Shown here one piece after another: positions 36,384-56,849 of a stretch of DNA of 64,000 nucleotides. Under the pieces are notes generated by a model. That model was given only the letters and a program-made list of their open reading frames with translations, was not told the origin of the DNA and did no database searches. The stretch is from contig NZ_BNEL01000003.1 in the NCBI RefSeq assembly GCF_018327685.1, forward strand, positions 2,666,001 to 2,730,000. The letters are read 5' to 3'. Numbering within the stretch: position 1 is the first letter of the stretch; each line of letters opens with the position of its first letter. The stretch comes from Streptomyces sp. TS71-3 (lineage in GTDB: Bacteria; Actinomycetota; Actinomycetes; Streptomycetales; Streptomycetaceae). The translations under genes were made by a program, and so were the position numbers.

Positions 36384-39300
36384 TCACTTGCCGTACGCCA
36401 GCGCGAACAGGTGGACCGTGCCCGAGCCCGTCTCCGGGAGGGTGAGCGAGGCCACCGTCTTCGACGGGTCCAGGGGCACCTTCGTGGCGAAGACGTAGGC
36501 CTTCACCGAGTCCCTGCCTCCGGACGCGGTGTTCCGGTAGGTCGTCGTGACGGCCGTGGTGTCGCTGCCGACGGGCTGGGCGGAACCGCCGTTCAGGGTC
36601 CAGTCCGAGAAGGTGACGTCCGCCTTCGCGGTGGTCCCGTCGGTGTAGGTGACGGTGAGCGTGCCCGTGGAGCCGCTGCCGTCCGTCGGGGCGTTGGCCG
36701 CGGCGCCCAGCAGGCCGAGGGACGAGCCGGAGGCGCCGGCGGGCTGGGTGATCGTCTGCCCCGCCACCTCCAGGTTGTCGCTCTGCCCGTCGGCGATCTC
36801 GGGCCAGGTGTACGTGATGCCGTCCGCCGTGACCTCCGAGCCGCTGATCACACCGCCCGACGCCAGCGCGTTCTGCGAGTACGCCCAGCCACCGTCGTCG
36901 AAGCCGCCGGAGAAGGTGGCGCCGTCCGGGTACTCCGCCTTGTTCGTCTCGTAGGGCCACAGGGCGCCCGGCTGGGCGACGGCCACGCGCAGCGTCGCCG
37001 AGCTCAGGTCCGCACCGCTCGCGTGGTCGGTGACGGCGAAGTCCACCGGGTAACTGCCCTCGGTGTCCCCGGCCGTGACGGTGACCTTGGCCTGGGCGGT
37101 GCCCGACGGCGGGACGGTCACGGAGCCGGAACCGGTGCCGAGGCCCACGCCGGACGGCGCGGTGGCCTTCCAGTCGGCCGTGACGGCCTTGCCGCCCAGG
37201 TTCGTGAGCGTCAGCGTGCCCTCGCCGGAGCCGCCCGGCGCGACGATCAGGCCGTCGCTGGCGGGACCCGTCGCGGCCAGCAGCCGGTCGCCCCCGGTGG
37301 TGTCCGACGGCGGAACGCTCCCCGCCGACGTGGCCCAGGAGGTGTTCGGCTGCGTGCCCAGGGTGAAGTCCAGCTTCCCGGCCTTCTCGAACTGCCCGAA
37401 CGTCAGCCAGGACTTCTGCCACTGCGCCCCGCCGACGGCGAGCGACTGCACGTACGGCGCGTCAGGGGCCGCCTGCGGCGCGTTGACGGTGACCTGCTTG
37501 CCGTTCCCGAGGGTGATCTTGGCGACCGGGAAGGCGGGGCTGCCCAGCACCAGCGTGTCGGTGCCCGGCGTCTCCGGGTAGGCGCCCAGCATCGACCAGA
37601 CGTACCAGGAGCTCATCGCGCCCAGGTCGTCGTTGCCGAACGAGCCGACCGGGGCGTTGAAGTAGAGCTTCTGCTGCGCCTGCCGGACCGCGTCCTGGGT
37701 CTTCCAGGGCTCCGCCAGGTAGTTGTACTCCCAGGGGATCTCGACGCTGGGCTCGTTGCTCAGGTCGGCGCTGGTGCCGGACGGGTGCGCCACGTCGCGC
37801 AGCAGGCCGTCCAGGTAGGAGGAGTACGCCTCCTTCCCGCCGCGGGCCGTGATCAGCTGCTGGACGTTGAACGGCACCATGGGCGTGTACTGGGCCGAGG
37901 TGCCCTCCACGAACCCGTTGGACGTGCCCGGCGTGAAGCCGCCGGCGAACCGCCCGTCCTTGGTGCGGGCCTGGAGGTAGCCCGACTGCGGGTTGAAGAC
38001 GTTCATCCAGTCCTGGGCGCGCGTGGCGAACTTCCGGTACACCGCGTCGTTGCCCAGCGACTTCGCGAAGGACGCGAGGGCGTAGTCGGCGCTGTCGTAC
38101 TCCAGCTGCGTGGAGACCGGGCCGTAGAAGTTGCAGCAGCCGTAGTCGCTCTCGTCGACCGGCAGGTAGCCCTTGGCGTCGCGCACCGACTCGCCGGGCC
38201 GGTCCCGGTTCGACGCGGTGGCCTCGTGCTGGAGGGCGTCCAGCGCGTGGCGCGTGTCGAAGTCGCGGGCGCCGAACGCGTAGGCGTCGGCGATGATGCC
38301 GGCCGCCGGGTCGCCGACCATGACGTAGCTCTCGCCGTTGTTCGAGGCCCACTTGGGCAGCAGCCCGGTCTGGTCGTAGCCGTTCAGCATCGACGTGACG
38401 ACGTCACTGGTGACCTTGGGCTCGACCATGGCCATCAGCTGGGTCTGGGACCGGTAGGTGTCCCAGCCCGAGTAGTTGGCGTACTGGGCCTGCTGGCCCC
38501 CCGCGACCCGGTGGACCTGGTTGTCCATGCCCATGTACCGGCCGTCGGCGTCGGAGAACACGTTCGGGTGCAGCAGCGCGTGGTAGAGCGCCGTGTAGAA
38601 CTGCACCTGCTGGTCCTGGCTGCCGCCGCCGACGGCCACCCGGCCGAGCACCTTGTTCCAGGCGTCGTGGTTCGCCCGGTGCATCGCGTCGAAGTCCCAG
38701 CCCCTCACCTCGGACGAGAGGTTCGAGGCGGCGCCCGCGTCGCTGGTGTACGAGATGCCGACGGCGGCGCTCACGGTGGGGTTCTTGGCGGTGTCGAAGG
38801 TGAGGTACATGCCGTTGGCGCCGGTGACCGGCGGTGAGCTCTTCGGCGCCTCCTTCGCGGCGGTGCCGCCGGCGGAGGTGCCGCCGGCCACGGCGCCGTG
38901 GATGATCGGGGACGGCGTGTTCGGCACCGTGAAGTGCGGCTCGTGCAGCGGCGCGGCGGCCCGCTTCGCGGGCTCCTGCCGGACCGGGCCGGCCTTCAGC
39001 GAGGTGGCGTTCGGATGGATGCTGCTGCCGACCCAGGTGCCGCTGTCCTTGAACGGCTGGTCGAACTTGATGTCGAAGTGCAGGGTGTACCGGTTGTCGG
39101 CGCCGCAGAAGTGCCCGCTGTCGACCGAGCCGATGACCTCGCGGTCGCCGACGACCTGGGCACGGGTGCCGTCCACCGGGGTGGCGCTGCCGCTCAGCTT
39201 GAGCAGCAGGTTCGACTGGGCACCGGCCGGGAACGTGAACCTGCCGAGCCCGGCGCGCGTGGTGTCGGTCAGTTCGGTCCTGACCCCGGACGCGTCGGTG

Positions 39301-39761
39301 ACGCCGTAGTAGCCGATCCCCGCCTTCTCGTCGTCGTGGCTGAACGCCGAGGACATGCCGGAGAGGTCACCGGACAGCTCCCCGGTGCGGGGCAGGATCG
39401 GCAGATCGCCCGCGACGCCGCACCCCGGGCCCGAGACGTGCGTCAGGCTGAACCCGGAGATCTTGCTGTCCTTGTACTCGTAGCCGCCGCCGGAGGGCCG
39501 GTCCGGAGTGGTGTCGGGGCCCCACTGGAGCATGCCGAACGGCATGTCGGGGCCGGGGAAGGTGTCGACCGCCCCGGAGGTGCCGATCATGGGGTTGACC
39601 AGTGCTGCGGGGTCCTGGACCGGCGTGGCGGCGGCTGCCGCCGACGCGCTGCCGGCCGCCTGCAGCGGCAGCGCCGCCAGGCCCAGGACGGAGATGAGGA
39701 CCAAGCGCCTGCGGAACCGGCTTCTCAGGGGTGGCGCACTCGAACGTCGACGTCTGACCAT
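36384..39761 (-). CDS. GH92-family secreted alpha-mannosidase with C-terminal carbohydrate-binding domains
   Basis: 1125 residues. Signal peptide to about residue 44. GH92 catalytic region (about 50-770) with VNPMIGTSGAVDTFPGPDMPFG, GGYEYKDSKISGFSLTHVSGPGC, YSGWDTYRSQTQL, and NDDLGAMSSWYVWSMLGAYPETPG near its end. These hydrolyse mannosides with inversion, calcium-dependent. The C-terminal part has an NEW3-like alpha-galactosidase-associated domain (LTNLGGKAVTADW) and an NPCBM-like module. Probably cleaves mannose from glycans or lipomannan outside the cell. A LacI-type operator lies 90 bases upstream of ATG 39761. Confidence 0.93.
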   Translation of the reverse strand: MVRRRRSSAPPLRSRFRRRLVLISVLGLAALPLQAAGSASAAAAATPVQDPAALVNPMIGTSGAVDTFPGPDMPFGMLQWGPDTTPDRPSGGGYEYKDSKISGFSLTHVSGPGCGVAGDLPILPRTGELSGDLSGMSSAFSHDDEKAGIGYYGVTDASGVRTELTDTTRAGLGRFTFPAGAQSNLLLKLSGSATPVDGTRAQVVGDREVIGSVDSGHFCGADNRYTLHFDIKFDQPFKDSGTWVGSSIHPNATSLKAGPVRQEPAKRAAAPLHEPHFTVPNTPSPIIHGAVAGGTSAGGTAAKEAPKSSPPVTGANGMYLTFDTAKNPTVSAAVGISYTSDAGAASNLSSEVRGWDFDAMHRANHDAWNKVLGRVAVGGGSQDQQVQFYTALYHALLHPNVFSDADGRYMGMDNQVHRVAGGQQAQYANYSGWDTYRSQTQLMAMVEPKVTSDVVTSMLNGYDQTGLLPKWASNNGESYVMVGDPAAGIIADAYAFGARDFDTRHALDALQHEATASNRDRPGESVRDAKGYLPVDESDYGCCNFYGPVSTQLEYDSADYALASFAKSLGNDAVYRKFATRAQDWMNVFNPQSGYLQARTKDGRFAGGFTPGTSNGFVEGTSAQYTPMVPFNVQQLITARGGKEAYSSYLDGLLRDVAHPSGTSADLSNEPSVEIPWEYNYLAEPWKTQDAVRQAQQKLYFNAPVGSFGNDDLGAMSSWYVWSMLGAYPETPGTDTLVLGSPAFPVAKITLGNGKQVTVNAPQAAPDAPYVQSLAVGGAQWQKSWLTFGQFEKAGKLDFTLGTQPNTSWATSAGSVPPSDTTGGDRLLAATGPASDGLIVAPGGSGEGTLTLTNLGGKAVTADWKATAPSGVGLGTGSGSVTVPPSGTAQAKVTVTAGDTEGSYPVDFAVTDHASGADLSSATLRVAVAQPGALWPYETNKAEYPDGATFSGGFDDGGWAYSQNALASGGVISGSEVTADGITYTWPEIADGQSDNLEVAGQTITQPAGASGSSLGLLGAAANAPTDGSGSTGTLTVTYTDGTTAKADVTFSDWTLNGGSAQPVGSDTTAVTTTYRNTASGGRDSVKAYVFATKVPLDPSKTVASLTLPETGSGTVHLFALAYGK

Positions 39762-39851
39762 CCGTTGCCTCCGTGCTTCCTGCCTCGCTCAGGGCGTGCG
39801 GGGGTGAGGTCCCCGGCCGGCAACGCCGCGCCGCGGTCCGCGAGTCCGCTT

Positions 39852-39867
39852 TTGACAACGTTGCCAA
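39852..39867. promoter_or_regulatory. LacI-type operator upstream of GH92
   Basis: TTGACAACGTTGCCAA, an inverted repeat centred on AACGTT with one mismatch, the usual core of LacI-family sugar operators. Suggests sugar-specific repression of the mannosidase. Confidence 0.62.
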
Positions 39868-39967
39868 CCTGCACGACGGATGAGTACAGCTCCGTTCGGC
39901 CGGGCCTGTCAATGACCTTGACGCAAGTCCCGGTGTCCGGGGGTGCGGGGTCCGGACTCTCCTGCGG

Positions 39968-40198
39968 GGAGAGCCGAGGTGGGGGGCCCGGATCAGCGCG
40001 GTCACCCTCCGTCAGGGAGAGCCGAGGTGGGGCCGGATCCGTGCCGTCGCTCCCCGGCGGGGTGAGCCGAGGCGGGGGCCGGATCCGTGCCGTCGTTCCC
40101 CCGCGGGGAGAGCCGAGGTGAGGGCCGGATCAGCGCGGCCACCGTCCGACAGGGAGAGCCTGGGCGGGGGCCGGATCCGTGCCGTCGCCCCCCGGAAG
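39968..40198. repeat. Five ~46-base tandem repeats between GH92 and the XRE regulator
   Basis: Units start at 39968, 40016, 40061, 40107 and 40153, each opening GGAGAGCC or GGTGAGCC followed by a G-rich run and CCGGAT. Two variants exist: GGATCAGCGCGG (units 1 and 4) and GGATCCGTGCCGTCG (units 2, 3 and 5). They fill much of the 512-base gap. Not separated by unique spacers, so not CRISPR. Confidence 0.85.
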
Positions 40199-40273
40199 GG
40201 AGCGCCGGGGAAGCCCCCTGCCTATGCACACCGGTACCAGGCACGCGGCGCTCTCCTCGCGGACACTGGAGGC

Positions 40274-41200
40274 ATGGCACACTCCGGCACCCCCTCCGGC
40301 GGCAACGAGCTGGGGGAGTTCCTCCGCTCCCGCCGTGCGGCGCTCGACCCGCAGCGTGCGGGCTTCCCGGACGACGGGCGGCTGCGCCGGGTCCCGGGCC
40401 TGCGCCGTGAGGAACTGGCCCAGATCGCCCATGTGAGCGTGGACTACGTGGTCCGGCTGGAGCAGGGCCGCACCCGCCGAATCTCCCGCCCGGTGCTCGA
40501 CGCGCTCGCCGACGCCCTCCAGCTCGCCGCGGACGAGCGCGAGTACCTGTTCACCGTGGCCGACGTCGCCCCGGCCGCCCCCGCGCGGCGTGCCGCCCGG
40601 CCGACGACCGCCCCGCGGCTGCGGCAGCTCCTCGACACGATGCACGACGTGCCCGTCCTGGTGCTGCACCGCGGCATGGACGTGCTGGCCTGGAACCGCG
40701 GAGCCGCCGCCCTGCTCACCGACTTCGGCGCGCTGCCCGAGGCCGAGCGCAACCTGATCCGGCTGACCTTCCTCGACGACGCCTTCCGCGCGCTGTACGC
40801 GGACTGGCCGCGGGCGGCGCGCGAGTGCGTCGCGGTCCTGCGGATGGAGGCGGGCCGCACCCCCGACGACCCCGCGCTGGGCGCGCTCGTCGACGAGCTG
40901 AACCTGCGCGACACCGACTTCCGCACCTGGTGGGCCAGCCACCAGGTGCGGGGACCTCGGCAGCTCACCAAGACCTACCGGCATCCGGTGGTGGGCACCC
41001 TCGTCCTGGACGTGCAGAGCTTCTCCGTGGACACCCATCCCGACCAGTTGCTCGTCGCCTACACCGCCGAGCCGGACTCACCGTCCCAGGAGGCCCTCCG
41101 CTTCCTCCTCCAGTGGTCCGCGGCCCGGGCGCCCGGCGACGAGCACGACGGTGCCACGGGCCGCGGCGGTCCGCGCCGGGGATCGTCCGGGGGGTCGTGA
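40274..41200 (+). CDS. XRE-family HTH regulator with MmyB-like ligand domain
   Basis: 308 residues. The helix-turn-helix (about 38-85) includes LRREELAQIAHVSVDYVVRLEQGR, followed by LADALQLAADEREYLF. The C-terminal MmyB-like domain (about 105-285) has VLVLHRGMDVLAWN and VVGTLVLDVQSFSV. Such regulators are very common in Streptomyces and often control an adjacent oxidoreductase, but none is next to it here. GGAGGC precedes the ATG. Ends at a hairpin. Confidence 0.9.
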   Translation: MAHSGTPSGGNELGEFLRSRRAALDPQRAGFPDDGRLRRVPGLRREELAQIAHVSVDYVVRLEQGRTRRISRPVLDALADALQLAADEREYLFTVADVAPAAPARRAARPTTAPRLRQLLDTMHDVPVLVLHRGMDVLAWNRGAAALLTDFGALPEAERNLIRLTFLDDAFRALYADWPRAARECVAVLRMEAGRTPDDPALGALVDELNLRDTDFRTWWASHQVRGPRQLTKTYRHPVVGTLVLDVQSFSVDTHPDQLLVAYTAEPDSPSQEALRFLLQWSAARAPGDEHDGATGRGGPRRGSSGGS

Positions 41201-41244
41201 CGGGACCTGCCGCCGAGCGGGTCCGCTGCCAGGGCGACGCGGGC

Positions 41245-41276
41245 GCCCGCCCCGGGGCCGACGCTCCGGGGCGGGC
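41245..41276. terminator. Hairpin between convergent XRE and serine hydrolase genes
   Basis: GCCCGCCCCGG (41245-41255) pairs with CCGGGGCGGGC (41266-41276), loop of 10. Confidence 0.72.
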
Positions 41277-41284
41277 ACGCGTTC

Positions 41285-43063
41285 TCAGTGGTGGCCGGCG
41301 GCCGGGAGCTGCTGCCAGCCGTTCGACGTCAGGGGCGCGTCCGGCCTGTCGCCGTCGAGCAGGACCCCGGAGCCGTCGGTGACGCGGAGGCCGGTGAGGT
41401 TCACGCCGCGGCCCTCGTACGACGGGTCCGTGGTGTACCGCCAGCGCAGCCGCAGGCCGTCGGACGCCCCCGGCAGCTTGGCGTGCACCCGCCACCAGGC
41501 ACGGACCGACTGTCCGGACAGTGCGGAGACCTCGCCCGACGGGGCACCGGTGCCGGACACCGTCAGCGGCACCGCCTGCCAGGTGGCGCCGCCGTCGGTG
41601 CTGGACTCCAGCTGGACCAGGTCCGTGGACTCGGTGTTGACGAACGCGCTGAAGCCGACGTCGACGGGTCCGGTGGCCTTCAGCGGGCCCGTGGTCAGCG
41701 TGCTGGTGGTGCCGCCGGCCTGGGCGGAGAACCACGACCTGCCGCCACCCGGGGCCGCGACCGGCATCGCCTCCGCGAGTGCCTGGGCCACGGCCCGCCG
41801 GGCCGGGTTGGTGGAGGGGGTGTTGCGGCTCGGGTGCACCCGGTTGGTCAGCAGGATCGCGAACGACCGGGACTCCGGGTCGATCACCAGGGAGGTGCCG
41901 GTGAACCCGGTGTGGCCCAGCGTCCCAGGCCCCGACAGGCCGCCCATGTACCAGATCTGGTCCAGCTCGAAGCCCAGCCCGTGGGAGTCGTCCGGGAACT
42001 TCTGGTTGAAGTTCTCCTCCATCAGCGTCACGCCGTGCTCGCTGAGGATGCGGTGGCCTTTGTACACACCGCCGTTGAGGATCGCCTGGGCGAGGACGGC
42101 CAGGTCGTCGACGGTCGAGAAGACGCCGGCGTGGCCCGCGACACCATCCAGCGACCAGGCGTTCTCGTCGTGCACGACACCCCGCACCATGCCGCGCGGC
42201 GGGCTCGCCTCGTACTCGGTGGCGGCGACCCTGCCCAGCTTCGACGCCGGCGGGTTGTAGCCGGTGTCCGCCATGTGCAGCGGCCCGGTGATGTCGTCCC
42301 GCACGAGGGCGTCCAGCGGCCTGCCGGTGACCTTCTCCAGGACCAGCTGCATGGTGAGCATGTTCAGGTCGGAGTACAGGTAGGTGGTGCCCGGCGGGTT
42401 GATGGGCTTGGTGTCGAGGATGGCCTTCTTGCGGGCGGCGACGTCCGGGTAGCCCTGCCAGAGCGACGGGACCGGGTCGGCGTCGAACCCGGAGGTGTGC
42501 GTGAGCAGTTGCAGGATGGTGATGTCGCCCTTGCCGTTCACGGCGAACTCGGGCAGGTAGTGCGCGACCGGCGTGTCCAGGTCGATGTGGCCGGCCTCCA
42601 GCTGCTGAACGGCAAGGAGCGAGGTGAACAGCTTGGAGAGCGACGCCAGGTCGTAGATGGTGTCGGTGCGGGCCGGGACCCGCTGGTCCTCGGGCAGCTC
42701 GGTGGTGGCGTCGGCGTACTTGAGGGCGTAGCCCGCCGCGCTGCGCTCCACCACCTTGCCGTCGTGGACCATCAGGCTGGTGGCTCCGGGGAAGAGGTAG
42801 TTCGCCCCGCTCGCCGGGTCCTCCCAGGTGGCGACCTGGTGCTCGAACGCCGTGATGGGGGCGGGGTCGAGCCCCGCCTGGCCGGGCGTGGCCGGGTGCA
42901 GCACCGTGCTCGCGGGAGCGAAGCCGCGGTAGGGCTGGTCGAACCGGCCGTGGCCCGTGCCCGCCGCCGCGCCGTGGCCCGCGGCGGGCGCCGCGACCGC
43001 GCCGGCCGGGAGTGCGAGTGCGGCCAGCAGGACGGTGGCCACGGTGTACGCAGGAATCCGCAT
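41285..43063 (-). CDS. Secreted serine hydrolase, beta-lactamase class C / esterase type
   Basis: 592 residues. Signal peptide to about residue 26. The catalytic S-x-x-K is S141-L-S-K144, followed by LLTHTSGF, the Y-x-N-like YSDLN and a late HTGFTG (the KTG-equivalent). A C-terminal beta-rich extension (about 430-590, ESSTDGGATWQAVPL) is unusual. Could act as D-aminopeptidase, carboxypeptidase or esterase rather than as a beta-lactamase. Lies downstream of the NagZ-like GH3 gene in the same direction, a pairing seen in peptidoglycan recycling or scavenging. Confidence 0.88.
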   Translation of the reverse strand: MRIPAYTVATVLLAALALPAGAVAAPAAGHGAAAGTGHGRFDQPYRGFAPASTVLHPATPGQAGLDPAPITAFEHQVATWEDPASGANYLFPGATSLMVHDGKVVERSAAGYALKYADATTELPEDQRVPARTDTIYDLASLSKLFTSLLAVQQLEAGHIDLDTPVAHYLPEFAVNGKGDITILQLLTHTSGFDADPVPSLWQGYPDVAARKKAILDTKPINPPGTTYLYSDLNMLTMQLVLEKVTGRPLDALVRDDITGPLHMADTGYNPPASKLGRVAATEYEASPPRGMVRGVVHDENAWSLDGVAGHAGVFSTVDDLAVLAQAILNGGVYKGHRILSEHGVTLMEENFNQKFPDDSHGLGFELDQIWYMGGLSGPGTLGHTGFTGTSLVIDPESRSFAILLTNRVHPSRNTPSTNPARRAVAQALAEAMPVAAPGGGRSWFSAQAGGTTSTLTTGPLKATGPVDVGFSAFVNTESTDLVQLESSTDGGATWQAVPLTVSGTGAPSGEVSALSGQSVRAWWRVHAKLPGASDGLRLRWRYTTDPSYEGRGVNLTGLRVTDGSGVLLDGDRPDAPLTSNGWQQLPAAGHH

Positions 43064-43078
43064 AGAAGCCTTCGTTCG

Positions 43079-43183
43079 GAGACGGGAGAGGGGAGACAGG
43101 AGACGGAAGACGGGAGACGGGAGACGGGAGACGGAAGACGGGAGACGACAGGCGGGGGCAGGGAGACGACAGACGGGAGAAGG
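43079..43183. repeat. Fifteen heptamer repeats (GAGACGG) between the NagZ-like and serine hydrolase genes
   Basis: From 43079 to 43183 the sequence reads as 15 seven-base units in perfect register, mostly GAGACGG or one to three changes from it. It fills most of the gap upstream of the serine hydrolase start. Confidence 0.88.
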
Positions 43184-43216
43184 TGGCGGAGCACGACGCC
43201 GTGCTCCGCCGGCAGA

Positions 43217-44350
43217 TCAGGCCAACTGGTTCCGGAGCGCCGTGACGCGCTGCACGGCCGCGTCGAAGGCGGCGCGGTCGAGGGTGCCGTCCTGGACGGC
43301 GGCGGCGAGCGCGGTGACGGTGTCCTCGCCCTGGCTGACGTCGCGCGCCGAGCACAGCAGCAGGTCCATCCCGGCTCCCGCGGCCTTGACCCCCCGCTGC
43401 GCGGAGGTTCCGAACGCGCTCAGCGCCCCGGCCTCCAGCGCGTCGGTGACCGTCACGCCCGTGAAGCCGAGACGGCCGCGCAGCTCCTGGACCACGGTGG
43501 GGGACAGGCCCGCGGGCAGGTGGGAGTCGAGCGCCGGGTAGATCGCCCAGGAGAGCATCACCAGCTTGACGCCCGCGGCGATCGCGGAGGTGTACGGCCG
43601 CTCGTCGGTGCTGTGCAGCTGCGAGAGGGAGACGTTCAGGGTGACCGCGCGCAGGTCGGTGTTCTGGCTCGACGAGGCCGAGCCGAGGCCGGGGAAGTGC
43701 TTGGCGGTGGCCGCCACGCCGGTGGCCTGCTGCGCCGTGACGAAGTCCTTGCCGAGGGTGCCGACGACCGCGGGGTCGGTGCTGTAGGAGCGCTTGAACT
43801 GGTCGGCGAAGTCGCCGGCCTTGCGGTAGACGTCCAGCACCGGGGCGAGGTTGACGTTCATGCCGACGCCCGCGAGGTTCTGGCCGGCGCCGGTGCCCGC
43901 GTCCCGCGCCGCGGCCTCCGGGTTGGCGGAGGCGCCGACCTCCTTCTCGGAGAGCACCGGCGCGCCGGGCAGGCGGCGCACCTGGCCGCCCTCCTGATCG
44001 GTCGTCAGCACCAGCGGCGCCGTGACGGGGCTCGCTTGGTGGGCCTGCCTGAGCTGGTCGACCACGGTGGCGATCTGGCTGAGGCTGGAGATGTTCTCCC
44101 CGAAGAAGATCACTCCGCCGGCGCGGCCCTCGCTGATCGCGTCGAGCAGGCTCTGCGGCGGGGTGAGGCCGGGATAGGAGAAGATCACGCGCTGTCCGGC
44201 CTGCTGGAGCGGGGTCAGGGCACGCCGCCGGGAATGCTCGGCGGGTGCGGCCGCCTCGGCCGATCCGCCGATGCCGATACCGATGCCGGCCGCCGCCGTA
44301 CCGGCGATCAGTGCGCCACGTCTGCTGATGGGGTTCCTCGCTGTGCTCAT
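43217..44350 (-). CDS. Tat-exported GH3 beta-N-acetylhexosaminidase (NagZ-like)
   Basis: 377 residues from ATG 44350, with GAGGAGAGAG upstream. The Tat signal SRRGALIAGTAAAGIG lies near residue 9. GH3 features: TDQEGGQVRRLPG, KHFPGLGSASSSQNTD with the NagZ His-Asp loop, and nucleophile D303 in VTVTDALEAGAL. The single-domain length is as for NagZ. Cytoplasmic in Gram-negatives, here predicted to act outside, on peptidoglycan or chitin fragments. First gene of a pair with the serine hydrolase. Confidence 0.92.
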   Translation of the reverse strand: MSTARNPISRRGALIAGTAAAGIGIGIGGSAEAAAPAEHSRRRALTPLQQAGQRVIFSYPGLTPPQSLLDAISEGRAGGVIFFGENISSLSQIATVVDQLRQAHQASPVTAPLVLTTDQEGGQVRRLPGAPVLSEKEVGASANPEAAARDAGTGAGQNLAGVGMNVNLAPVLDVYRKAGDFADQFKRSYSTDPAVVGTLGKDFVTAQQATGVAATAKHFPGLGSASSSQNTDLRAVTLNVSLSQLHSTDERPYTSAIAAGVKLVMLSWAIYPALDSHLPAGLSPTVVQELRGRLGFTGVTVTDALEAGALSAFGTSAQRGVKAAGAGMDLLLCSARDVSQGEDTVTALAAAVQDGTLDRAAFDAAVQRVTALRNQLA

Positions 44351-44831
44351 CTCTCTCCTCACGAACGTCTCGTCCATGCTTCGCCGGAGCCAACGCAGGA
44401 GCGCCCCTCTCGTGCGGGCGCGGCGTCCACGGTGAAGGAAACTTCCCCGTATGCACAAGGGTGAAGAAAATTATTTGCAGAGTCGTCACCATGCATGTCG
44501 GACCCCCGAGCGGCCGGGCGCGCCGCGCACGCGCGACCGGCGCGCGACGGCCTGCGTCCACCGGGCGGAAGAGTCGCCGGATGGATCCCACCGGCGGATG
44601 CCAGGCGAGTAATCGATTTCAGAAGCGGGCTGACGGTTCGTCTGGAACCTCGCCTCTCACTTCCCGCCCGGAAAAGCCGCCAACGACGGGCAATTCGACG
44701 AGGAGTCTCCTCCCTGCCGCTTTGCTGTCTTGACGTGAACATGGACCGACTATACGGTCCGCGTGAAATCGATTCCTCGCATGCCGTGCCCCGTCCGACC
44801 CCGCCGCGCCCACCCGCCCACGGAGACAGCC
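44351..44831. other. 481-base divergent control region between NagZ-like and DUF4185 genes
   Basis: No gene. It contains an AT-rich patch (44461-44480) near the NagZ-like start and the predicted promoter with overlapping inverted repeat for the DUF4185 gene. Confidence 0.55.
44730..44760 (+). promoter_or_regulatory. Predicted promoter with overlapping operator upstream of DUF4185
   Basis: TTGACG (44730-44735), 17 bases, TACGGT (44753-44758) fits the housekeeping TTGACn/TAnnnT pattern. The inverted repeat GGACCG-N6-CGGTCC (44743-44760) covers the -10 box. Confidence 0.5.
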
Positions 44832-46562
44832 ATGCACACGCTCGCCGGACCCCCGCCCGCCCGGAGATTCCTGCGCCGGTTCCTGCCCCCCTGGCTGATC
44901 GCCCTCGCCGTGCTGCTGGCCGGGCTGCCGGCCGCCACCGCGGCGCCCTCGGGCCCGTCCTCCGGTGCCGCGGGAGTACGGCGGGCGGCGGCCGCTCCCA
45001 CCCCGCCGGAGAGCTCCTTCTTCTCCACCGTCGACATCGACTCGGGAGCCACCGTCGGCGCCCCCGCCGCCGGCGACAACCGCAGCCACGGTGACCTCTG
45101 GCCGAACTGCTGGTCCGACGACGACAACGTCTACGGCGCCTACGGCGACGGCGTGGGCTTCGGCGGCGACGACAACGGCAGCGACATCGGCGTCGCCCGG
45201 ATCTCCGGCACCCCCGGGAACCTGACGGGCACCCAGCTCGCCAAGGGCGACGGCGTGGGCCAGGTGTGGACGGCCGGCCACAGCCGCAAGCCCACCGGCA
45301 TGGCCTGCGTCGGCGGCACCCTCTACCTCGCCGTCCAGGACCTCGCGTCCGACTTCAACGACGCCCCGGCGGCCACCGTCGCGAAGTCCTCCGACCACGG
45401 CAGGACCTGGACCTGGGACCACTCGGCGCCGATGTTCTCCGGCGGCGTCTTCAGCACCGTGATGTTCCTCGACTACGGCAAGGCCTACGGCAACGCCCCC
45501 GACGGCTACGTGTACGCCTACGGGCTCGACGGCAACTGGCGGGACTCGTTCAACGACCGGGTCAAGGACCCCCAGGACCTCTACCTGGCCAGGGTGCCCG
45601 AGGACTCCGTGCAGGACCGGTCGGCGTGGCAGTTCGCCAGCGGCTTCGCCGCGGACGGCACCCCCACCTGGTCCTCCGACATCGCGAGGAAGGCCCCCGT
45701 CCTGCACGACGAGCGCCGGGTCTACCCGAACGTGTACACGGACGGCCGGATCGAGAACCTCAGCGTGCTCAGCCAGGGCGGCATCGTCTACGACAAGCCG
45801 CTGAACCGCTACGTCTACACCTCCTGGACCGAGTACACCTTCGAGTTCTACGAGTCCCCGACGCCCTGGGGTCCCTGGAAGCGGTTCGACTCCAAGGATT
45901 TCGGCGGCTACCCCTGGACCCACGCCAAGCACGGCGGTTACGCCGTGACCGTCCCGTCGAAGTACATCAGCGGCGACGGCAGGTCCATGTGGGTGCAGTC
46001 GAACGTCTGTCCCTGCGGTGGTGGCATCTCCGACCAGTGGGCGTACACGTTCTCGCTGCGCAGGATGCACCTGGAGCCGTTCACGCCGACCACGCCCGCC
46101 AACGCCCCCGACGACACGCACAACCTCGCCCGTGACCCGGGCACCGTGGGCGTCCAGCGCGCCACCCACTTCGGGAACACCGCGTTCTACAACGACGGCA
46201 ACCTCGCCGAGAACGAGGACGACTGGAACGACGAGAACAAGACCGAGAGCTGGTGGGGCTACACCTGGCCGCGGGCGGTCACCATGAACAAGGTCGTCTA
46301 CACCACCGGCACGATGTTCGGCGACGGCGGCTGGTTCTCCGGCGGCCCCCGGGTGCAGGTGCGCCGGAACCACACCTGGGTCGACGCCGGCGGGCTGCGG
46401 GTGTCGCCCGCCTACCCCCACGACGCCACCGCGGGGACCAACCGTACCTACACGCTGACGTTCGACCCGGTCGACGGCGACGGCGTACGCGTCATCGGAA
46501 CGCCGGGCGGCACCAGGACCTTCACCTCCATCGCCGAACTCGCCGTGTACTACGGGACCTAG
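44832..46562 (+). CDS. Secreted DUF4185 protein (GH183 endo-D-arabinanase-like) with C-terminal discoidin-like domain
   Basis: 576 residues from ATG 44832, with GGAG upstream. Signal peptide to about residue 40. The DUF4185 propeller (about 70-435) has HGDLWPNCWSDDDNVYGAYGDG, repeated SSDHGRTWTW-like blades, YVYAYGLDG and WGPWKRFDS. The C-terminal part (NLARDPGTVGVQRATHFGNT to FTSIAELAVYYGT) looks like an F5/8 type C binding module. DUF4185 enzymes include endo-D-arabinanases classed as GH183. The next gene is DUF2961 (GH172-type), the partner exo-enzyme family. Activity here is inferred. Confidence 0.78.
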   Translation: MHTLAGPPPARRFLRRFLPPWLIALAVLLAGLPAATAAPSGPSSGAAGVRRAAAAPTPPESSFFSTVDIDSGATVGAPAAGDNRSHGDLWPNCWSDDDNVYGAYGDGVGFGGDDNGSDIGVARISGTPGNLTGTQLAKGDGVGQVWTAGHSRKPTGMACVGGTLYLAVQDLASDFNDAPAATVAKSSDHGRTWTWDHSAPMFSGGVFSTVMFLDYGKAYGNAPDGYVYAYGLDGNWRDSFNDRVKDPQDLYLARVPEDSVQDRSAWQFASGFAADGTPTWSSDIARKAPVLHDERRVYPNVYTDGRIENLSVLSQGGIVYDKPLNRYVYTSWTEYTFEFYESPTPWGPWKRFDSKDFGGYPWTHAKHGGYAVTVPSKYISGDGRSMWVQSNVCPCGGGISDQWAYTFSLRRMHLEPFTPTTPANAPDDTHNLARDPGTVGVQRATHFGNTAFYNDGNLAENEDDWNDENKTESWWGYTWPRAVTMNKVVYTTGTMFGDGGWFSGGPRVQVRRNHTWVDAGGLRVSPAYPHDATAGTNRTYTLTFDPVDGDGVRVIGTPGGTRTFTSIAELAVYYGT

Positions 46563-46682
46563 GAACTCTCTCGACCCGGGTTCATGGGGCCCCTACACAC
46601 ACGGCACCAGCGCACAGGGCACACCGAGACATGGCACCACAGCGACATCCCCTCCGCAGCACCGAGAAAGCGGGCAGCAGCC

Positions 46683-49600
46683 ATGAGAAGCCTGACCACA
46701 CGCCCGCGGGCATGGCCGCCCCTCGTGGCCCTCCTCGCGGGACTGCTCTTCGGGGGCCTCGCGCTCGCCGTACCCGCCCAGGCGACCCCGCCCGGGGCCC
46801 GGGCCGCCGCCCCGGCCGACCACGGGCAACCCGCGGCCGCGCCGGCCGGGCAGCCGAGGGCCGCCGCCGCGGACAAGGGCCCCGTCGGCTGGGACACCTA
46901 CCGGCGGCTCGACCGGCTGCCGTACCTCAGCGCCGGCACCCAGACCCGGCAGTTCTCCAGCTTCGACAGGACCGGCGGCAACGGCGACGGTTTCGACGGC
47001 ACCTACTCCTGCCTGAAGACGACGGCGTCCGGCTGCGTCCTCGCCGAGGACCACGGCGCCGGGGAGATCTCCTCGATCTGGTTCACCCGCGACAACGGCG
47101 ACGTCACCGCCACCGGCACCCTCACCATCGAGCTGGACGGCGCCACCGTCCTCAACGCGCCGCTCCAGGACGTGGTGGACGGCAAGCAGGGCGCACCGTT
47201 CGTGTATCCGCTCGTGGCCGACGCCGACCAGTCCTCCGGAGGCGTCTACATCAAGGTCCCGATGCCGTACCGCGACTCGATGCGGGTCACCGTGCGGAAC
47301 AACCCGCTCTTCTACCACGTCGGCTACCGGCACTTCACCGACGCGGACGGCGTGCGGCGCTTCGACCCGTCCGACCCCGCCACCGACGTGATCGACATGC
47401 TGAAGGCGGCCGGCGCCAAGGACCCCAAGCCCGCCGCGGCCGGTGCCACCACCGTGCGCAGGACGCTCGGCCTCGCCGCCCATCAGCAGGGAGAGGCGGC
47501 CCGGCTCGACGGGCCCGGCAGCATCAGCGCCCTCAGGGTGCGGATCCCGGACGGCGAGGACACCGACGCGGTGCTGTCCGGCCTCCGGCTGCGGCTCGGC
47601 TTCGACGGCAGGCAGACCGCGGACGCCCCGATCGGCGAGTTCTTCGGCTCCGGACTCGGCGAGAGCCCGGTGCGCTCGCTGCTGTTCGCCATGGACACCG
47701 CCGCGGACGGCTGGTACACGACCTGGTGGCCGATGCCGTACCGGAGCGACGCGCGGGTCAGCCTGGTCAACTCGACGGGGCAGGCGCTCAGCGGCCTCGA
47801 CGTCGAGGTGACGTCCGCGCCCGACAGCCAGTGGGCCGCCGCCCTGGCTGCGACCGGCGGCGCCGGCTACTTCTCCGCCGAGTCCCACCGCGGTGACACT
47901 GTCGCCGACCACGACTGGCTGTTCTCGGACCGCACGGGGCGGGGCAAGTTCGTCGGCGTCTCCGACACCATGCAGGGCCGCATCCCCACCGGGAACACCC
48001 GCGGCTACCTGGAGGGCGACGAGCGGGTGTACACCGACGGCCGGCTCAGCCCCCAGACGCACGGCACCGGCACCGAGGACTTCTACGAGTCCGGCTGGTA
48101 CTTCAACCGCGGCACCTACACCAACCCGATGAACGGCAACCCGAAGCACGAGAAGGCGGCCGACGGCTGCCAGTACGAGTGCGACGGCGCCTACCGGCTG
48201 ATGCTCGCCGACGCCGTCCCCTACGCCTCCGCGCTGCGCTTCGGCATCGAGCACGGCGCGCAGGACGACGCCCCCGCCCTCTACGGCTCCACCGCGTTCC
48301 TGTACGCCAAGGACGCCGCGGACGGCGCCGGGCTGCACCGCACCACCGTCATCGACACCGGCGACCCGGCGAGCCGCGCGGCGGCCGGCTACCAGGAGAG
48401 CGGGAACGCGACGCAGACCACGCTGGACTCCGTGTACGAGGGCGACGCGGACGACACGCCGGTGAGCGGCGCGGTGCGGGCCACCTCGGCACCGGTCTCC
48501 TTCCGGCTCGACCTGGACGCGCAGAACCAGGGGGTGCTGCTGCGCCGCACCTGTGACCAGGCGGCCGCCTACCAGTCGGCGACGGTCCTCGTCGACGGCA
48601 CCGGCGTGGGCACCTGGACGCAGCCGCTCGGCAACGCCGCGCAGCGCTGGCTCACGGACACCTTCCCGCTCCCGGCGAGCGCCACCGCGGGCAGGACCCG
48701 GGTCACCGTGGAACTGCGCCCCGCGGCCGGCGCACCGGCCTGGACCGCGAGCGGGTACGCGGCCGACAGCCTCGTCGCCGCCCACCCGGACTCCGGCCCG
48801 CCCACCGCCGGCACCGCCGCCCTGACCAGTGGCACCGACCACGCCCTGCACCTGTCGTGGCGGGAGCCCGCCGACGACACCGGGGTGCGGGAGTACCGGG
48901 TGTACGGGTCCGCCTCCCCGGACGTGCCCGTGGGCGACGCCACCCTGCTCGGCACCGCCCACGCGCCGGGCTTCACCGACGGCCCGCTGAAGCGCGGCAC
49001 GGAGCGGCACTACCGGGTGGTCGCGGTCGACATGGCGGGCCGCACGGCCCAGCTCGGCGGGGTGCTCTCCGGGCGCAGCGGGACGCCGACCCGCAGCGAC
49101 CTGAACGGCGACGGCCGGGACGACGCCGTGACGTTCACCCGGGGCGAGGCGGCCGACGTCTTCGCGGCGCTCTCCGACGGGTCCGCCTTCGTCGGCGACG
49201 GCGTGAAGTGGCACGACCACTTCGCGCAGGGCGGCGAGATCCCGCTCACCGGCGACTTCGACGGCGACGGCCGTGAGGACGCCGTGACGTTCACCCGGGG
49301 CGAGGCGGCCGACGCGTACGTGGCGCTGTCCGACGGCACGCCTTCCGCGGCGACGGGGTCAAGTGGGCCGACGACTTCGCGGCCGGCACGGCAGTGCCCG
49401 CGGTGGGCGACTTCGACGGCGACGGCAAGGACGACGTCGCCGCCTTCACCCGCGGCGACGCCGCCGACGTCTACGTGGCCCTGTCCACCGGCGGCTCCTT
49501 CGGGGCGCCCCGCCAGTGGCACGGCCACTTCGCGGTGGGCACCGAGATCCCCGAGGTGGGGGACTTCGACGGGGACGGCCGCGACGACATCGCCACCTTC

Positions 49601-50047
49601 ACCCGCGGCTCCTCCGCCGACGTGTACGTGTCCCTGTCCAGCGGCAGCGCGTTCCGGCAGGACGGCTGGCTCTGGCACGGCCACTTCGCGGTCGGCGACG
49701 AGATCCCAGCGGTCGGCGACGTCGACGGCGACGGCCGCGACGACATCGTCACCTTCACCCGCGGCGATACGGCGGACGTCCTCGTCTCCCTCTCCGATGG
49801 CACCCGGTTCGTCCAGAACGGCTGGAAGTGGCACGACTCCTTCGCCGGCGGGGACCAGGTGCCCGGCATGGGCGACTTCGACGGCGACGGGCGCGCCGAC
49901 ATCGTCGCCTTCACCCGCGGCTCCACAGCGGACGCCCTGGTGTCGCTCTCCGGCGGCACGGCCTTCGGGCCCGCCGGGACCTGGCACGGCCACTTCGCCA
50001 CCGGCGACGAGTGGCCGCGGCCCAGCGAGGTGCAGACCCTGCCCTGA
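46683..50047 (+). pseudogene. DUF2961 (GH172-like) glycosidase with six calcium-binding repeats, frameshifted
   Basis: Frame one from ATG 46683 encodes a signal peptide, the DUF2961 domain (about 65-430; [28 protein letters not shown]), a second module and a fibronectin-like domain. Repeats of about 51 residues, each opening D-x-DGDGRDD and [11 protein letters not shown], then follow. At 49338-49342 one base is missing: the third repeat onward is in another frame, ending at TGA 50047. Adding one base restores a 1121-residue protein with six repeats. GH172 includes D-arabinofuranosidases. The break lies in repetitive DNA, so an assembly error is possible. Confidence 0.82.
49104..50030 (+). repeat. 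Six ~153-base coding repeats (VCBS/FG-GAP-like) at the 3' end of the DUF2961 gene
   Basis: Each unit encodes DxDGDGRxDxxxFTRG, a Val/Ser-rich strand and a W-H-x-x-F run. The acidic DxDGDG loop is a typical calcium site of FG-GAP repeats. Confidence 0.8.
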
Positions 50048-53042: not shown

Positions 53043-55685
53043 TCAGGACGACGTACAGCTGAGCGTGCCCGCCTCCGCGCCCTCGATCAGGGCGCGATGC
53101 GCCGCCGCGAGCCGCTTCGCGTCGGGCTTGAGGACGCTCCTGTCATACGTCAGCAACCCGTTGAGCTCGCCCTCCACATCCGAGATCTGGGTGTAGACGG
53201 CACCGTTGCTGCCGTGGCAGGCCGCGAGTTGCTCCACCTCCTCCAGCCGGTCGAGGTAGGTGTCGGTGTAGACCGCCGGGTCCACGGACACGTAGCTCTG
53301 CTGCACCGGGAAGGAGTGCCCCGGCACCGCGAGGCCGAGGCCCCCGTACTCCCCGCTGACCAGGGCGCGGCCGCCGTCCGGCGCGGGTAGCTGCGGACTG
53401 GGGTAGCCGTGCGCGTCGGCGATGTCGCCGTTGCCGCCGTCCACCGCGCCGCAGCAGTTGAGCCCGCTCATGTTGTCGACGAGCCGGGTCGGGTCGAGCC
53501 GCTTCGCGTAGTCGGCGATCCGGGCCTGGTCGTACTGGCCCCAGCCTTCGTTGAAGGTGACCCAGATGGCCACCGACGGGTGGCTGTCGTGCTGGTGGAT
53601 CATCGCGGCGAGCTCGTGCTCGTACTCGGTGCGCGCCGCGGGGGACGGGTTGATGGTGTTCATCGCGGGCATGTCCTGCCAGACCAGCAGGCCCAGCCTG
53701 TCCGCCCAGTAGTACCAGCGGTCCGGCTCCACCTTGATGTGCTTGCGCACCGCGTTGTAACCGAGCTGCTTGTGCGTCCTCAGATCGAACGCGAGGGCCT
53801 CGTCGGTGGGCGCGGTGTACAGGCCGTCCGGCCAGAAGCCCTGGTCGAGCGTGGCCATCATGAAAAGCGGCTTGCCGTTCAGCAGGGTGCGCGGTGTGCC
53901 GTCCACCGCTTTGACCTCGATGGACCGCATCCCGAAGTAACTGCCCACCCGGTCCGCCCCCGCGCCGTGGCCGATCGTGACCTGGAGCCGGTACAGGTGC
54001 GGGTCGTCCGGGGTCCACAGGTGCGCCTTCGGCACCGGCACGGAGAGCGCGCCGCCGGTCGTGCCGGCCGCCCTGCCCACCTCCCGGGAGCCGTCGTAGG
54101 CGACCGCGGCGTACGGCACGCCGTCCCGGACGCCGCGCACCGAGACGCCGACCCTGCCGTGTGCCAGGTCGGGCGTGGTCTTCACGTCCTGCGCGTGGTC
54201 CGGTGCGACCGGCTCCATCCACACCGTCTGCCAGATGCCGGAGGTGGGGGTGTACCAGATGCCGCTGGGGTCCAGGCGCTGCTTGCCGATCGGCGGATCC
54301 TCGCCGTTCGCCGCGTCCGTCGGGTCGTAGACGCCGACCAGCAGCTCCTGCGGGCCCTTGCCCGTGAGAGCGTCGGTGACGTCGGCGCTGAACCGGTCGT
54401 AGCCGCCCTTGTGGGCCGCCACCCGGAGGCCGTTGACATAGACGGTGGCCTGCCAGTCGACGGCGTCGAAGTTGAGCTGGAGCCGCTTGCCGCCGCCCAC
54501 GTGCCAGCCGGTCGGCACCGTGAAGGTGCGCCGGTACCACATCCGGTCCTCGTGCCGCTCGACCCCGGAGAGCCCCGACTCCACCGGGTACGGCACGAGG
54601 ATCCTCTCGCCCAGGCGCTTGCCGAACGGCGGCTGGTCGCCCGCCTCGGCCGCGGCGAACTGCCAGGTGCCGTTGAGGTTCTGCCAGGCGTCACGGGTGA
54701 GCTGGGGGCGCGGGTACTCGGGGTGGGCGTTCGCCGGGGTGACGTCGCCGGCCCACCGGGTGCGCAGCTCGTACGTCGAGTCGTTGACGCCGCTCGTCCA
54801 GAAGCCGTCGATCGGCTTGCCGCCGGCGCCTGCGAGGCCGCCCGCGCCGTCGTAGCGGATGTCGGCCTGGCCGCCGTGGCCGCCCACGACCGGCTCGCTC
54901 AGCGGCACGATCAGCCGGCTGGGGTCGGCCGGGTCCCGGTGGGTGGTGCCCCGGGGCCACCGCGAGCCGCCGATCACGATGTCCAGGTGGTCGTCGAGCC
55001 CGGCCGGGGGCTCGGCGACCACCTGGGCGAAGTCCATGACGAGGTTCCTGCCGTCCGGCTGCACGGCCACGTCCGTCGGGCCGTCGTAGCCGAAGCCGTC
55101 GGGGAGGGTGAACGCGGACTGCGGGACCGGCTGCTTCTCGCCGCCCGGCGGCGTCCACCGCACATGCAGGTTGGAGCCGCCGGTGTGCTCGAAGTACTCC
55201 AGCCTGATGTCGTACGCCTGGCCCGCCTGGAGCGCGATCGGAGCGGATGTCTGCTCGGTGTCCCAGTCGTCCACCCAGTGGTCGATGACGAGGGAGCCGC
55301 CGATCCACAGCCTGAAGCCGTTGTCGGCGGAGACGGCGAAGACGTGGTCGCCGGTCTTCTCGGGGGTGATCCTGCCGGTCCAGCGGACACTGTCGTCGTC
55401 GCTCTGCCCGGTGCGTGCCAGAAGGCGCGGCTCCAGGTCGTCGAAGGCGAGGGACGGGTCGAACGCGGTCGCCTTCAGGGTCCCGAAGTCGAAGGCACCG
55501 GGGGCGCTCTGGGTGTAGTACTCGCCCTTGAGACCATGGACCGCGCCGGGTTCGGCCGCGGCCGCAGGGCCGGTGGCGGGGCCGCCGAGCGCGGTGGCCG
55601 CCAGGGCGAGTGCCGCGAACACCGTGGTCGCCCAGGTGCGCACGCGGCGGCGGCGCGGACGGAGAGGTGGGGAAGGTGAGTGCAC
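53043..55685 (-). CDS. Secreted GH2-family glycosidase with N-terminal PA14 domain
   Basis: 880 residues from GTG 55685, with GGAGGTACC upstream. Signal peptide to about residue 45. PA14 domain (about 50-180) with GLKGEYYTQS, VRWTGRITPEKTGDH and IDHWVDDWDTEQTS. GH2 sugar-binding, immunoglobulin-like and TIM-barrel domains follow. The acid/base is E713 in TFNEGWGQYD and the nucleophile E779 in SGEYGG. Possible activities: beta-galactosidase, beta-mannosidase or beta-glucuronidase. Divergent from the LacI gene with a shared operator. Confidence 0.92.
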   Translation of the reverse strand: MHSPSPPLRPRRRRVRTWATTVFAALALAATALGGPATGPAAAAEPGAVHGLKGEYYTQSAPGAFDFGTLKATAFDPSLAFDDLEPRLLARTGQSDDDSVRWTGRITPEKTGDHVFAVSADNGFRLWIGGSLVIDHWVDDWDTEQTSAPIALQAGQAYDIRLEYFEHTGGSNLHVRWTPPGGEKQPVPQSAFTLPDGFGYDGPTDVAVQPDGRNLVMDFAQVVAEPPAGLDDHLDIVIGGSRWPRGTTHRDPADPSRLIVPLSEPVVGGHGGQADIRYDGAGGLAGAGGKPIDGFWTSGVNDSTYELRTRWAGDVTPANAHPEYPRPQLTRDAWQNLNGTWQFAAAEAGDQPPFGKRLGERILVPYPVESGLSGVERHEDRMWYRRTFTVPTGWHVGGGKRLQLNFDAVDWQATVYVNGLRVAAHKGGYDRFSADVTDALTGKGPQELLVGVYDPTDAANGEDPPIGKQRLDPSGIWYTPTSGIWQTVWMEPVAPDHAQDVKTTPDLAHGRVGVSVRGVRDGVPYAAVAYDGSREVGRAAGTTGGALSVPVPKAHLWTPDDPHLYRLQVTIGHGAGADRVGSYFGMRSIEVKAVDGTPRTLLNGKPLFMMATLDQGFWPDGLYTAPTDEALAFDLRTHKQLGYNAVRKHIKVEPDRWYYWADRLGLLVWQDMPAMNTINPSPAARTEYEHELAAMIHQHDSHPSVAIWVTFNEGWGQYDQARIADYAKRLDPTRLVDNMSGLNCCGAVDGGNGDIADAHGYPSPQLPAPDGGRALVSGEYGGLGLAVPGHSFPVQQSYVSVDPAVYTDTYLDRLEEVEQLAACHGSNGAVYTQISDVEGELNGLLTYDRSVLKPDAKRLAAAHRALIEGAEAGTLSCTSS

Positions 55686-55829: not shown

Positions 55830-56849
55830 ATGAGTGTCAGTCTCAGGGATGTGGCGGAGCGTGCGGGCGTCTCCGTGAAGACCGTCTCCAACGTCGTCAA
55901 CGACTTCCCGCACGTCACGCCCGCCATGCGCGCGCGTGTGCAGCGCGCCATCGACGAGCTGGGCTACCGCCCGAACCTGACGGCCCGTCATTTGCGCAAG
56001 GGGCGTACCGGCCTGATCGCGCTGGCCATCCCGGAGCTGGGCAACGCCTACTTCGCCGAGCTGGCCGCGGCCGTGATCGACGCCGCCGCCCGGCACGAGT
56101 ACACCGTCCTGCTCGACCACACCCAGGGCCGCCGCGAGCAGGAGATCCAGGTCTGCCAGGGCTTCTCCGCGCGGGTCATGGACGGCCTGATCCTCAGCCC
56201 CCTGGAGCTGGAGCCGGAGGACCTCGCGGCCCGCACCGACCAGGCTCCGCTGGTGCTGCTCGGCGAGCGCCGCTACGACCTGCCCTACGACCACATCGCC
56301 ATCGACAACATCGCCGCCGCGCGGGCCGCCGTGCGCCATCTGCTGGCCCTCGGCAGGCGCCGCATCGCCTTCCTCGGTGCCCGCCAGAACCGCACCCACC
56401 AACCCGCCCACCTGCGGCTGGTCGGCTGGCAGGCGGAGCTGGCGGCCTGGGGGGTGCCCGTGGACGAGGCGCTGGTGGCCACCACCCAGGGCTGGGACCA
56501 CGAGGACGGCTCGGTCGCCATGGCGCACCTGCTGGACTCGGGCGAGCGGCCGGACGCGGTCTTCGCCTACAACGACCTGATCGCCATCGGCGCGATGCGG
56601 GTGCTGTTCGAGCGGGGGCTCAGGGTGCCCGAGGACATCGCGGTGGTGGGCTTCGACGACATCACCGAGTCCCGCTACGGCGCCGTCAGCCTCACCACCG
56701 TCGCCCCCGACAAGCAGGCCATCGCCCGGCTGGCCGTCGAGTCCGTGGTCGGCAGGCTCGCCGGCGGCCAGGACGGCTCGTCCCGGGAGCTCCAGCCCGG
56801 ATTCACGCTGGTCGAACGGGAGAGCACGCTGGGGCGCCGAGCCCGTTGA
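55830..56849 (+). CDS. LacI-family transcriptional repressor
   Basis: 339 residues. The N-terminal helix-turn-helix (3-50) reads SLRDVAERAGVSVKTVSNVVND with a hinge helix up to RHLRKGRTG, then a periplasmic-binding-like sugar domain ending VVGFDDITESRYGAVSLTTV. Divergent from the GH2 gene and upstream of the amine oxidase gene, with related operators on both sides. Likely senses a sugar released by the secreted glycosidases. Confidence 0.95.
   Translation: MSVSLRDVAERAGVSVKTVSNVVNDFPHVTPAMRARVQRAIDELGYRPNLTARHLRKGRTGLIALAIPELGNAYFAELAAAVIDAAARHEYTVLLDHTQGRREQEIQVCQGFSARVMDGLILSPLELEPEDLAARTDQAPLVLLGERRYDLPYDHIAIDNIAAARAAVRHLLALGRRRIAFLGARQNRTHQPAHLRLVGWQAELAAWGVPVDEALVATTQGWDHEDGSVAMAHLLDSGERPDAVFAYNDLIAIGAMRVLFERGLRVPEDIAVVGFDDITESRYGAVSLTTVAPDKQAIARLAVESVVGRLAGGQDGSSRELQPGFTLVERESTLGRRAR

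Follow-up and report, generated by a model that had tools for sequence, protein, structure and literature searches.

A divergent GH183-like protein and a secreted GH172 enzyme as the predicted secreted arm of a D-arabinan-degrading regulon in Streptomyces

D-arabinan is a sugar characteristic of the walls of mycobacteria and corynebacteria. Genes for its degradation were first reported in 2023 (PMC10115798, PMC10509167). As far as the available parts of these reports describe them, the D-arabinan locus of Microbacterium arabinogalactanolyticum comprises endo, ATP-binding cassette (ABC) import, exo-alpha, exo-beta, and kinase steps (PMC10509167), and GH183 and GH172 glycoside hydrolases of Candidatus Mycosynbacter amalyticus and of actinophage lysis cassettes are proposed to act against mycolata walls (PMC10115798); a single GH183 gene is listed in the carbohydrate-active enzyme (CAZyme) table of PMC12199506. 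No D-arabinan regulon of Streptomyces appeared in the titles and abstract openings of the literature that we searched, with most subscription journals lying outside this search. Here, we describe a 64,000-nucleotide stretch of the 9.79-Mb, three-contig genome of Streptomyces sp. TS71-3 (C3:2666001-2730000, hereafter the window) and, within it, the gene of a divergent DUF4185-type protein, W4185, and the GH172 (DUF2961) gene next to it. We assign a probability of roughly 0.8 to the reading that the window encodes the secreted arm of a D-arabinan-degrading regulon, with all functions predicted. Compared to the Microbacterium locus as available from PMC10509167, the same steps are found, but their genes are scattered over distant places in this genome, and operator-like sites are common to three of these. 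Export-like N-termini are seen in the exo-beta enzyme and in one of the exo-alpha enzymes (N-terminal signals were judged by eye throughout). Compared to the Mycosynbacter and phage cassettes in the available text of PMC10115798, the host is a Streptomyces and W4185 finds no match among 50,697 phage records at E 0.01. A phage or plasmid origin of W4185 was set aside given this result and the 5 plasmid records that match, only 1 of them over 80% of the length.

W4185 (44832 to 46562, forward strand; 576 residues) is a secreted, divergent DUF4185/GH183-like protein for which a propeller-type structure with a strand-rich C-terminal domain is predicted. In both fold comparisons of this predicted model, the GH183 enzyme EndoMA1 ranks first, at 15% to 20% identity in the structure alignment and in one of them about 9 Z units ahead of the next protein, followed by GH43 enzymes. 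Across 45 aligned sequences of the W4185 group, Asp88 and Asp106 are invariant, as are the GDLW and NWR motifs, and the spacing of 18 between these aspartates equals that of Asp33 and Asp51 in EndoMA1. A profile-profile alignment of W4185 and GH183 pairs Asp106 with Asp51 (99.4%, in a forced global alignment), and we propose from these sequences that Asp88 and Asp106 match Asp33 and Asp51. W4185 resembles the known GH183 proteins (EndoMA1, DgGH4185a/b, and AraH2 of M. tuberculosis) in its predicted propeller fold, its secretion, an Asp pair spaced 18 apart, and the company of GH172 and GH116, but it is divergent, has a conserved C-terminal domain of its own, and is barely detected by Pfam. The GH183-type label that an earlier note on this DNA had given to the gene is upheld by the fold comparison and the profile-profile alignment, although the DUF4185 profile match is weak (PF13810, 43.6 bits at a cut-off of 39.5 in a profile search of the genome, unreported in two hmmscan runs).

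The GH172 gene (46683 to 49340) follows W4185 on the forward strand after a gap of 120 bp, and this spacing suggests that the two are probably co-transcribed. Both proteins have signal-peptide-like N-termini, so the secreted, adjacent pair had been described correctly before, as had the existence of a frame problem, which lies in the DUF2961 gene. The DUF2961 match is strong (203.3 bits at a cut-off of 27) and spans residues 333 to 574 of the open reading frame from 46584, leaving the catalytic domain whole; both catalytic glutamates (in YLEGDE and GTGTEDF) align with those of 4kq7, 8ah3, and 7v1v, with their roles taken from the available part of PMC10115798. The catalytic domain is followed by additional domains and by the first of the FG-GAP repeats, and the remaining FG-GAP tail (49340 to 50047, forward strand) lies in a different frame. 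Codon-position guanine-plus-cytosine content changes phase between 49200 and 49350 with a strong signal on both sides, and an alignment to the intact 1118-residue relative of Streptomyces sp. ODS25 (L013), which is also encoded directly downstream of a W4185, changes frame near 49340 with identities of 76% and 74% on the two sides. The change falls inside the FG-GAP repeats beyond the catalytic domain.

Like ExoMA1 and alphaFFase1, the window GH172 has a DUF2961 domain with both catalytic glutamates, but it belongs to its own divergent clade of mostly long proteins that also includes L013, L014, L015, L029, and further genomes; FG-GAP tails are established for the window protein and for those of L015 and L029. 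The grouping with fructan-specific enzymes raised earlier is not seen in our tree, where more than 3 substitutions per site separate the window GH172 from all four solved GH172 that served as references, alphaFFase1 included (DgGH172a/b, NocGH172, and MycGH172 were left out), so that its own specificity may be for either alpha-D-arabinofuranosyl or alpha-D-fructofuranosyl ends. A cluster of relatives' genes initially labelled GH172 was discarded as mixed, its members having been grouped through FG-GAP repeats.

Co-occurrence was followed in 199 Streptomyces genomes, where GH172 proteins were split by score and length first and then checked by the tree, and GH183 was called strong at 130 bits or more, a threshold chosen after seeing the data; the Fisher tests ignore kinship of genomes, and groups were defined after seeing scores. 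DUF2961 is found in 21 of these genomes, strong GH183 in 26, and full-length W4185 in 7 (in an eighth, just 79 residues are present). DUF2961 accompanies W4185 in each of these 7 genomes (5.3e-8), and strong GH183 does so in 5 of them (4.6e-4). Strong GH183 or W4185 accompanies the ExoMA1 clade in 13/13 genomes (4.5e-13) and the window-type clade in 8/9 (4.8e-7), and full-length W4185 or strong GH183 is found in 0/4 genomes of the alphaFFase1 clade (G007, G144, G157, and G196). Excluded from the latter count was G028, which is alphaFFase1-type by score but unplaced by the tree at 1.92 from ExoMA1; the fragments of G009 stayed outside the tree. Because two ExoMA1-clade genomes, G129 and the 81% complete G198, carry W4185 without strong GH183, W4185 may stand in for GH183 in some genomes.

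These distributions bear on the alternative that W4185 is a propeller glycosidase acting on another furanosyl polymer such as L-arabinan, galactofuranan, or fructan, with the GH172 adjacency marking a broader furanoside locus. The second place of GH43 enzymes in the fold lists would fit this idea, as would a GH43 gene adjoining W4185 in one relative (L017) and the fact that GH172 includes alpha-D-fructofuranosidases, with copies nearest to alphaFFase1 (distances 1.66 to 1.88) in 8 of 37 GH172-bearing loci. Yet a GH172 is nearest to ExoMA1 in 25 of these 37 loci, the alphaFFase1-clade genomes have neither full-length W4185 nor strong GH183, EndoMA1 leads the fold comparison by its wide interval, and arabinose-5-phosphate-isomerase-type genes point to D-arabinose, so that we consider another furanosyl substrate improbable.

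The remaining steps of D-arabinan degradation are predicted from sequence matches elsewhere in the genome, where endo, exo-alpha, and exo-beta enzymes, an ABC transporter, and a sugar kinase are all found, split over contigs C1 and C3 here and clustered in many relatives. A cassette at C1:3.93-3.95 Mb (L094) encodes a LacI-type protein (L094:4510-5520), two permeases, a binding protein, a GH172, and an FGGY kinase. This second GH172 of the genome has no signal and groups with the D-arabinofuranosidase ExoMA1 (478.8 bits to 8ic8 versus 141.6 to alphaFFase1). The only DUF608/GH116 match of the genome, in a locus of its own and with an export-like N-terminus, scores 246.1 bits with the exo-beta-D-arabinofuranosidase ExoMA2 and 35.5 with the next, and a canonical GH183 with both aspartates lies at C3:2607660, 102 kb from W4185. 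Neither this GH183 and the second GH172 nor the GH3 and serine-hydrolase genes divergent from W4185 had been part of the earlier note.

Some of these places are connected by an operator-like site of the LacI type. The palindrome TGAAATSSATTTCA is common to upstream regions of the cassettes, with the strain's own cassette L094 in the learning set and the window outside it. At up to 2 mismatches, TGAAATCGATTTCA occurs at 11 places in the genome and its reversed control at 0; 3 of these lie at the C1 cassette, 1 directly ahead of the GH116 gene (1 mismatch), 2 in the W4185 promoter, and 5 elsewhere. When up to 3 mismatches are allowed, the window contains the two promoter sites (44608 to 44621 and 44764 to 44777, 224 and 68 bp upstream of the W4185 start) and no others, against an expectation of 0.05 matches. 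Among the window and relatives (excluding L024 and L081 for lack of upstream DNA), a site at up to 2 mismatches between 450 bp before and 40 bp after the gene start is found for W4185 in 19/79 cases (the window plus 18 relatives) versus 18/788 genes of no listed family (p 1e-11). By family, such sites precede FGGY (10/14), SIS (9/14), GH172 (15/33), PfkB (3/12), binding protein (8/35), LacI (8/46), c7 (1/16), FG-GAP/GH183 cluster (1/37), and permease (0/72) genes, and W4185 copies distant from their own cassettes in G129 and G136 also have one. A separate TGCAATCGATTGCA site at L131:5682 (C1:4860681) lies beside another LacI-type gene, recognized by its N-terminal letters, and is perhaps another repressor's operator.

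Following the Microbacterium scheme (PMC10509167) and the GH183/GH172 work (PMC10115798) as far as their texts are available, we propose that W4185 would act extracellularly, cutting alpha-D-arabinofuranosyl (alpha-D-Araf) chains of arabinogalactan and lipoarabinomannan through a GH183-like retaining mechanism with two aspartates, and that the window GH172 would trim alpha-D-Araf ends. The oligosaccharides would enter via the C1-encoded ABC transporter, and the signal-less ExoMA1-type GH172 and FGGY kinase of the C1 cassette together with the ExoMA2-type GH116 would complete degradation. The C1 LacI-family repressor would bind the TGAAATCGATTTCA-like sites of the three places, and D-arabinose or an oligosaccharide would release it. 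In this scheme, we infer the substrate, the endo mode, the repressor-operator pairing, the inducer, and a mycolata (Corynebacterium/Mycobacterium-type) wall as the source.

D-arabinan attack as proposed in the earlier note is well supported in silico by the fold and Asp pair, the GH172/GH183/GH116 and pentose-catabolism neighbourhood, genome co-occurrence, and the operator-like sites, and it reaches further than that note supposed, while its mannan part, centred on GH92, is left unsupported. Several observations nevertheless weigh against the D-arabinan reading. For W4185 itself, the Pfam cut-off is only just passed, a phmmer search against solved structures returned no GH183, and a profile of the 45 sequences found 9 chains there, all of the sialidase/Asp-box type (best E 2.4e-5). 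Asp88 and Asp33 are unpaired in the profile-profile alignment and were matched by eye via equal spacing, and at the place aligned by eye with Glu243 of EndoMA1 the 45 sequences show no invariant glutamate; the third active-site glutamate is essential in EndoMA1, and its equivalent is dispensable in DgGH4185b. At the level of regulation, both W4185 sites carry 2 mismatches, 5 of the 11 sites in the genome fall elsewhere, the three C1 sites are not independent of the learnt motif, and the 20-kb stretch around the canonical GH183 contains no such site even when 3 mismatches are allowed. Furthermore, none of the modules is present in 16 of 80 relatives' loci, and the best-scoring family for the C1 FGGY kinase is xylulokinase, at a value under the cut-off.

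The feeding reading in particular is affected by the isomerase-fold gene after this kinase (L094:11984-12727; C1:3942013-3942723), of which only C-terminal residues 307 to 543 are left here, although relatives including L043 (Streptomyces sp. CCM_MD2014), L124, and L125 have it in full; no second copy of this isomerase-type gene was found in the genome, with other isomerase families not searched. (A cluster of relatives' genes, c7, matched nothing in Pfam, NCBIfam, or solved structures by sequence and was identified through its predicted fold alone; a single-sequence search counted it in 19 loci, 5 of them weakly at 71 to 86 bits.) The shortened gene and the out-of-frame GH172 tail could mean that the system is the relic of a former feeding system, unusable by this strain. 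However, the strong codon-position signal before and after the frame change, the whole catalytic domain, the presence of operator-like sites, and the open frames of five C1-cassette proteins (kinase, binding protein, one permease, LacI, and GH172), with best matches 79% to 89% identical and among W4185-adjoining cassettes elsewhere, render a relic unlikely. That this Streptomyces feeds on mycobacterial walls is a reasonable inference.

Neighbourhoods were counted in 80 relatives' loci, with gene families called by profile or phmmer matches, and W4185 is adjoined by transporters and kinases in many of them. This company and the rarity of W4185 in the genus (7/199) speak against a role of the enzymes in remodelling the wall or envelope of the producer itself, and Streptomyces walls are not known to contain D-arabinan. 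Three Nocardia W4185 loci (L067, L070, and L071) lack feeding modules and mycobacteria themselves carry GH183, as stated in the available part of PMC10115798, but own-wall remodelling still seems very improbable to us. Two W4185 copies lie close together in L063, L068, and L076 (Avimonas and Haloplasmataceae assemblies), and a Haloprofundus halobius plasmid (NZ_CP083667.1; L096) combines a W4185 relative with an ABC transporter, GH172, and oxidative-pentose-type genes.

Other genes flanking the pair have weaker links to it. The secreted GH92 (36384 to 39761, reverse strand; PF07971, 491.6 bits) lies 5.07 kb from the W4185 start, but its suggested part in the system, trimming lipoarabinomannan, was set aside as unsupported: it has no operator-like site nearby, GH92 occurs near W4185 in only 7/80 loci, all of Kribbella, and the genome has six copies. 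Three of these six are found within about 104 kb on C3 (C3:2601043, C3:2657452, and C3:2703356). Divergent from W4185 and with a common intergenic region, a NagZ-like GH3 with a twin-arginine-translocation-like N-terminus (43217 to 44458, reverse strand) is followed downstream by a secreted serine hydrolase of class-C beta-lactamase fold (41285 to 43063, reverse strand). The KHFPG loop of the GH3 reads GLGSASSSQNTD, without the His and Asp letters of its best structure match, which we take to be catalytic. A conserved muropeptide module of both was rejected, given these letters and relatives near W4185 in 0/80 (GH3) and 3/80 (serine hydrolase) loci; regulon membership of the GH3 and a role of the serine hydrolase in the D-arabinan system are uncertain. 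Elsewhere in the window, a PA14/GH2 gene (53043 to 55685) and a divergent LacI-like gene (55830 to 56849) possibly form a separate sugar locus.

In some relatives, W4185 is part of larger sets. In L022 (S. coelicoflavus), a site precedes an FG-GAP-tailed W4185 that is followed by an M23 peptidase, a family-less protein, an Amidase_2, and a GH183, all FG-GAP-tailed. Over the parts scanned, L028 and L050 show the same arrangement: both have M23 and Amidase_2, GH183 is detected in L028 by Pfam and in L050 by a profile, and the L022-type family-less protein is present in L050. Nonomuraea L015 has an FG-GAP-tailed W4185, a family-less protein, an Amidase_2, and a window-type GH172, all FG-GAP-tailed, and no operator-like site was found there. 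Sets of the L022 and L015 types cover the peptidoglycan and arabinan layers of the mycolata wall. The family-less FG-GAP-tailed proteins (L022:14329-15816, L015:12663-14135, and L050:14276-15763) lack any Pfam match in their N-terminal half and are encoded beside amidase genes, in L022 and L050 also beside M23 genes; they are candidate new wall hydrolases.

As far as the literature searched goes, several features appear to be new, with their functions predicted from sequence: the group to which W4185 belongs, the clade of long secreted-type GH172 proteins, the operator, and a regulon dispersed over the genome. Somewhat short of even odds, W4185 could represent a distinct group of endo-D-arabinanases across Actinomycetota, Bacillota, Chloroflexota, a myxobacterium, and a haloarchaeon, with some streptomycetes and relatives using one D-arabinose-responsive regulon to fire peptidoglycan peptidase, amidase, and arabinanases together as a dedicated anti-mycolata attack system. 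The operator is a cheap handle for more wall-active enzymes, e.g., the FG-GAP-tailed protein beside M23 and amidase genes. If our reading is true, the arabinanase-like group with its uptake functions, and in some relatives peptidoglycan hydrolases, would provide new enzymes for analysing or opening mycolata-type walls, and the competition of streptomycetes and mycolata in soil would become directly testable.

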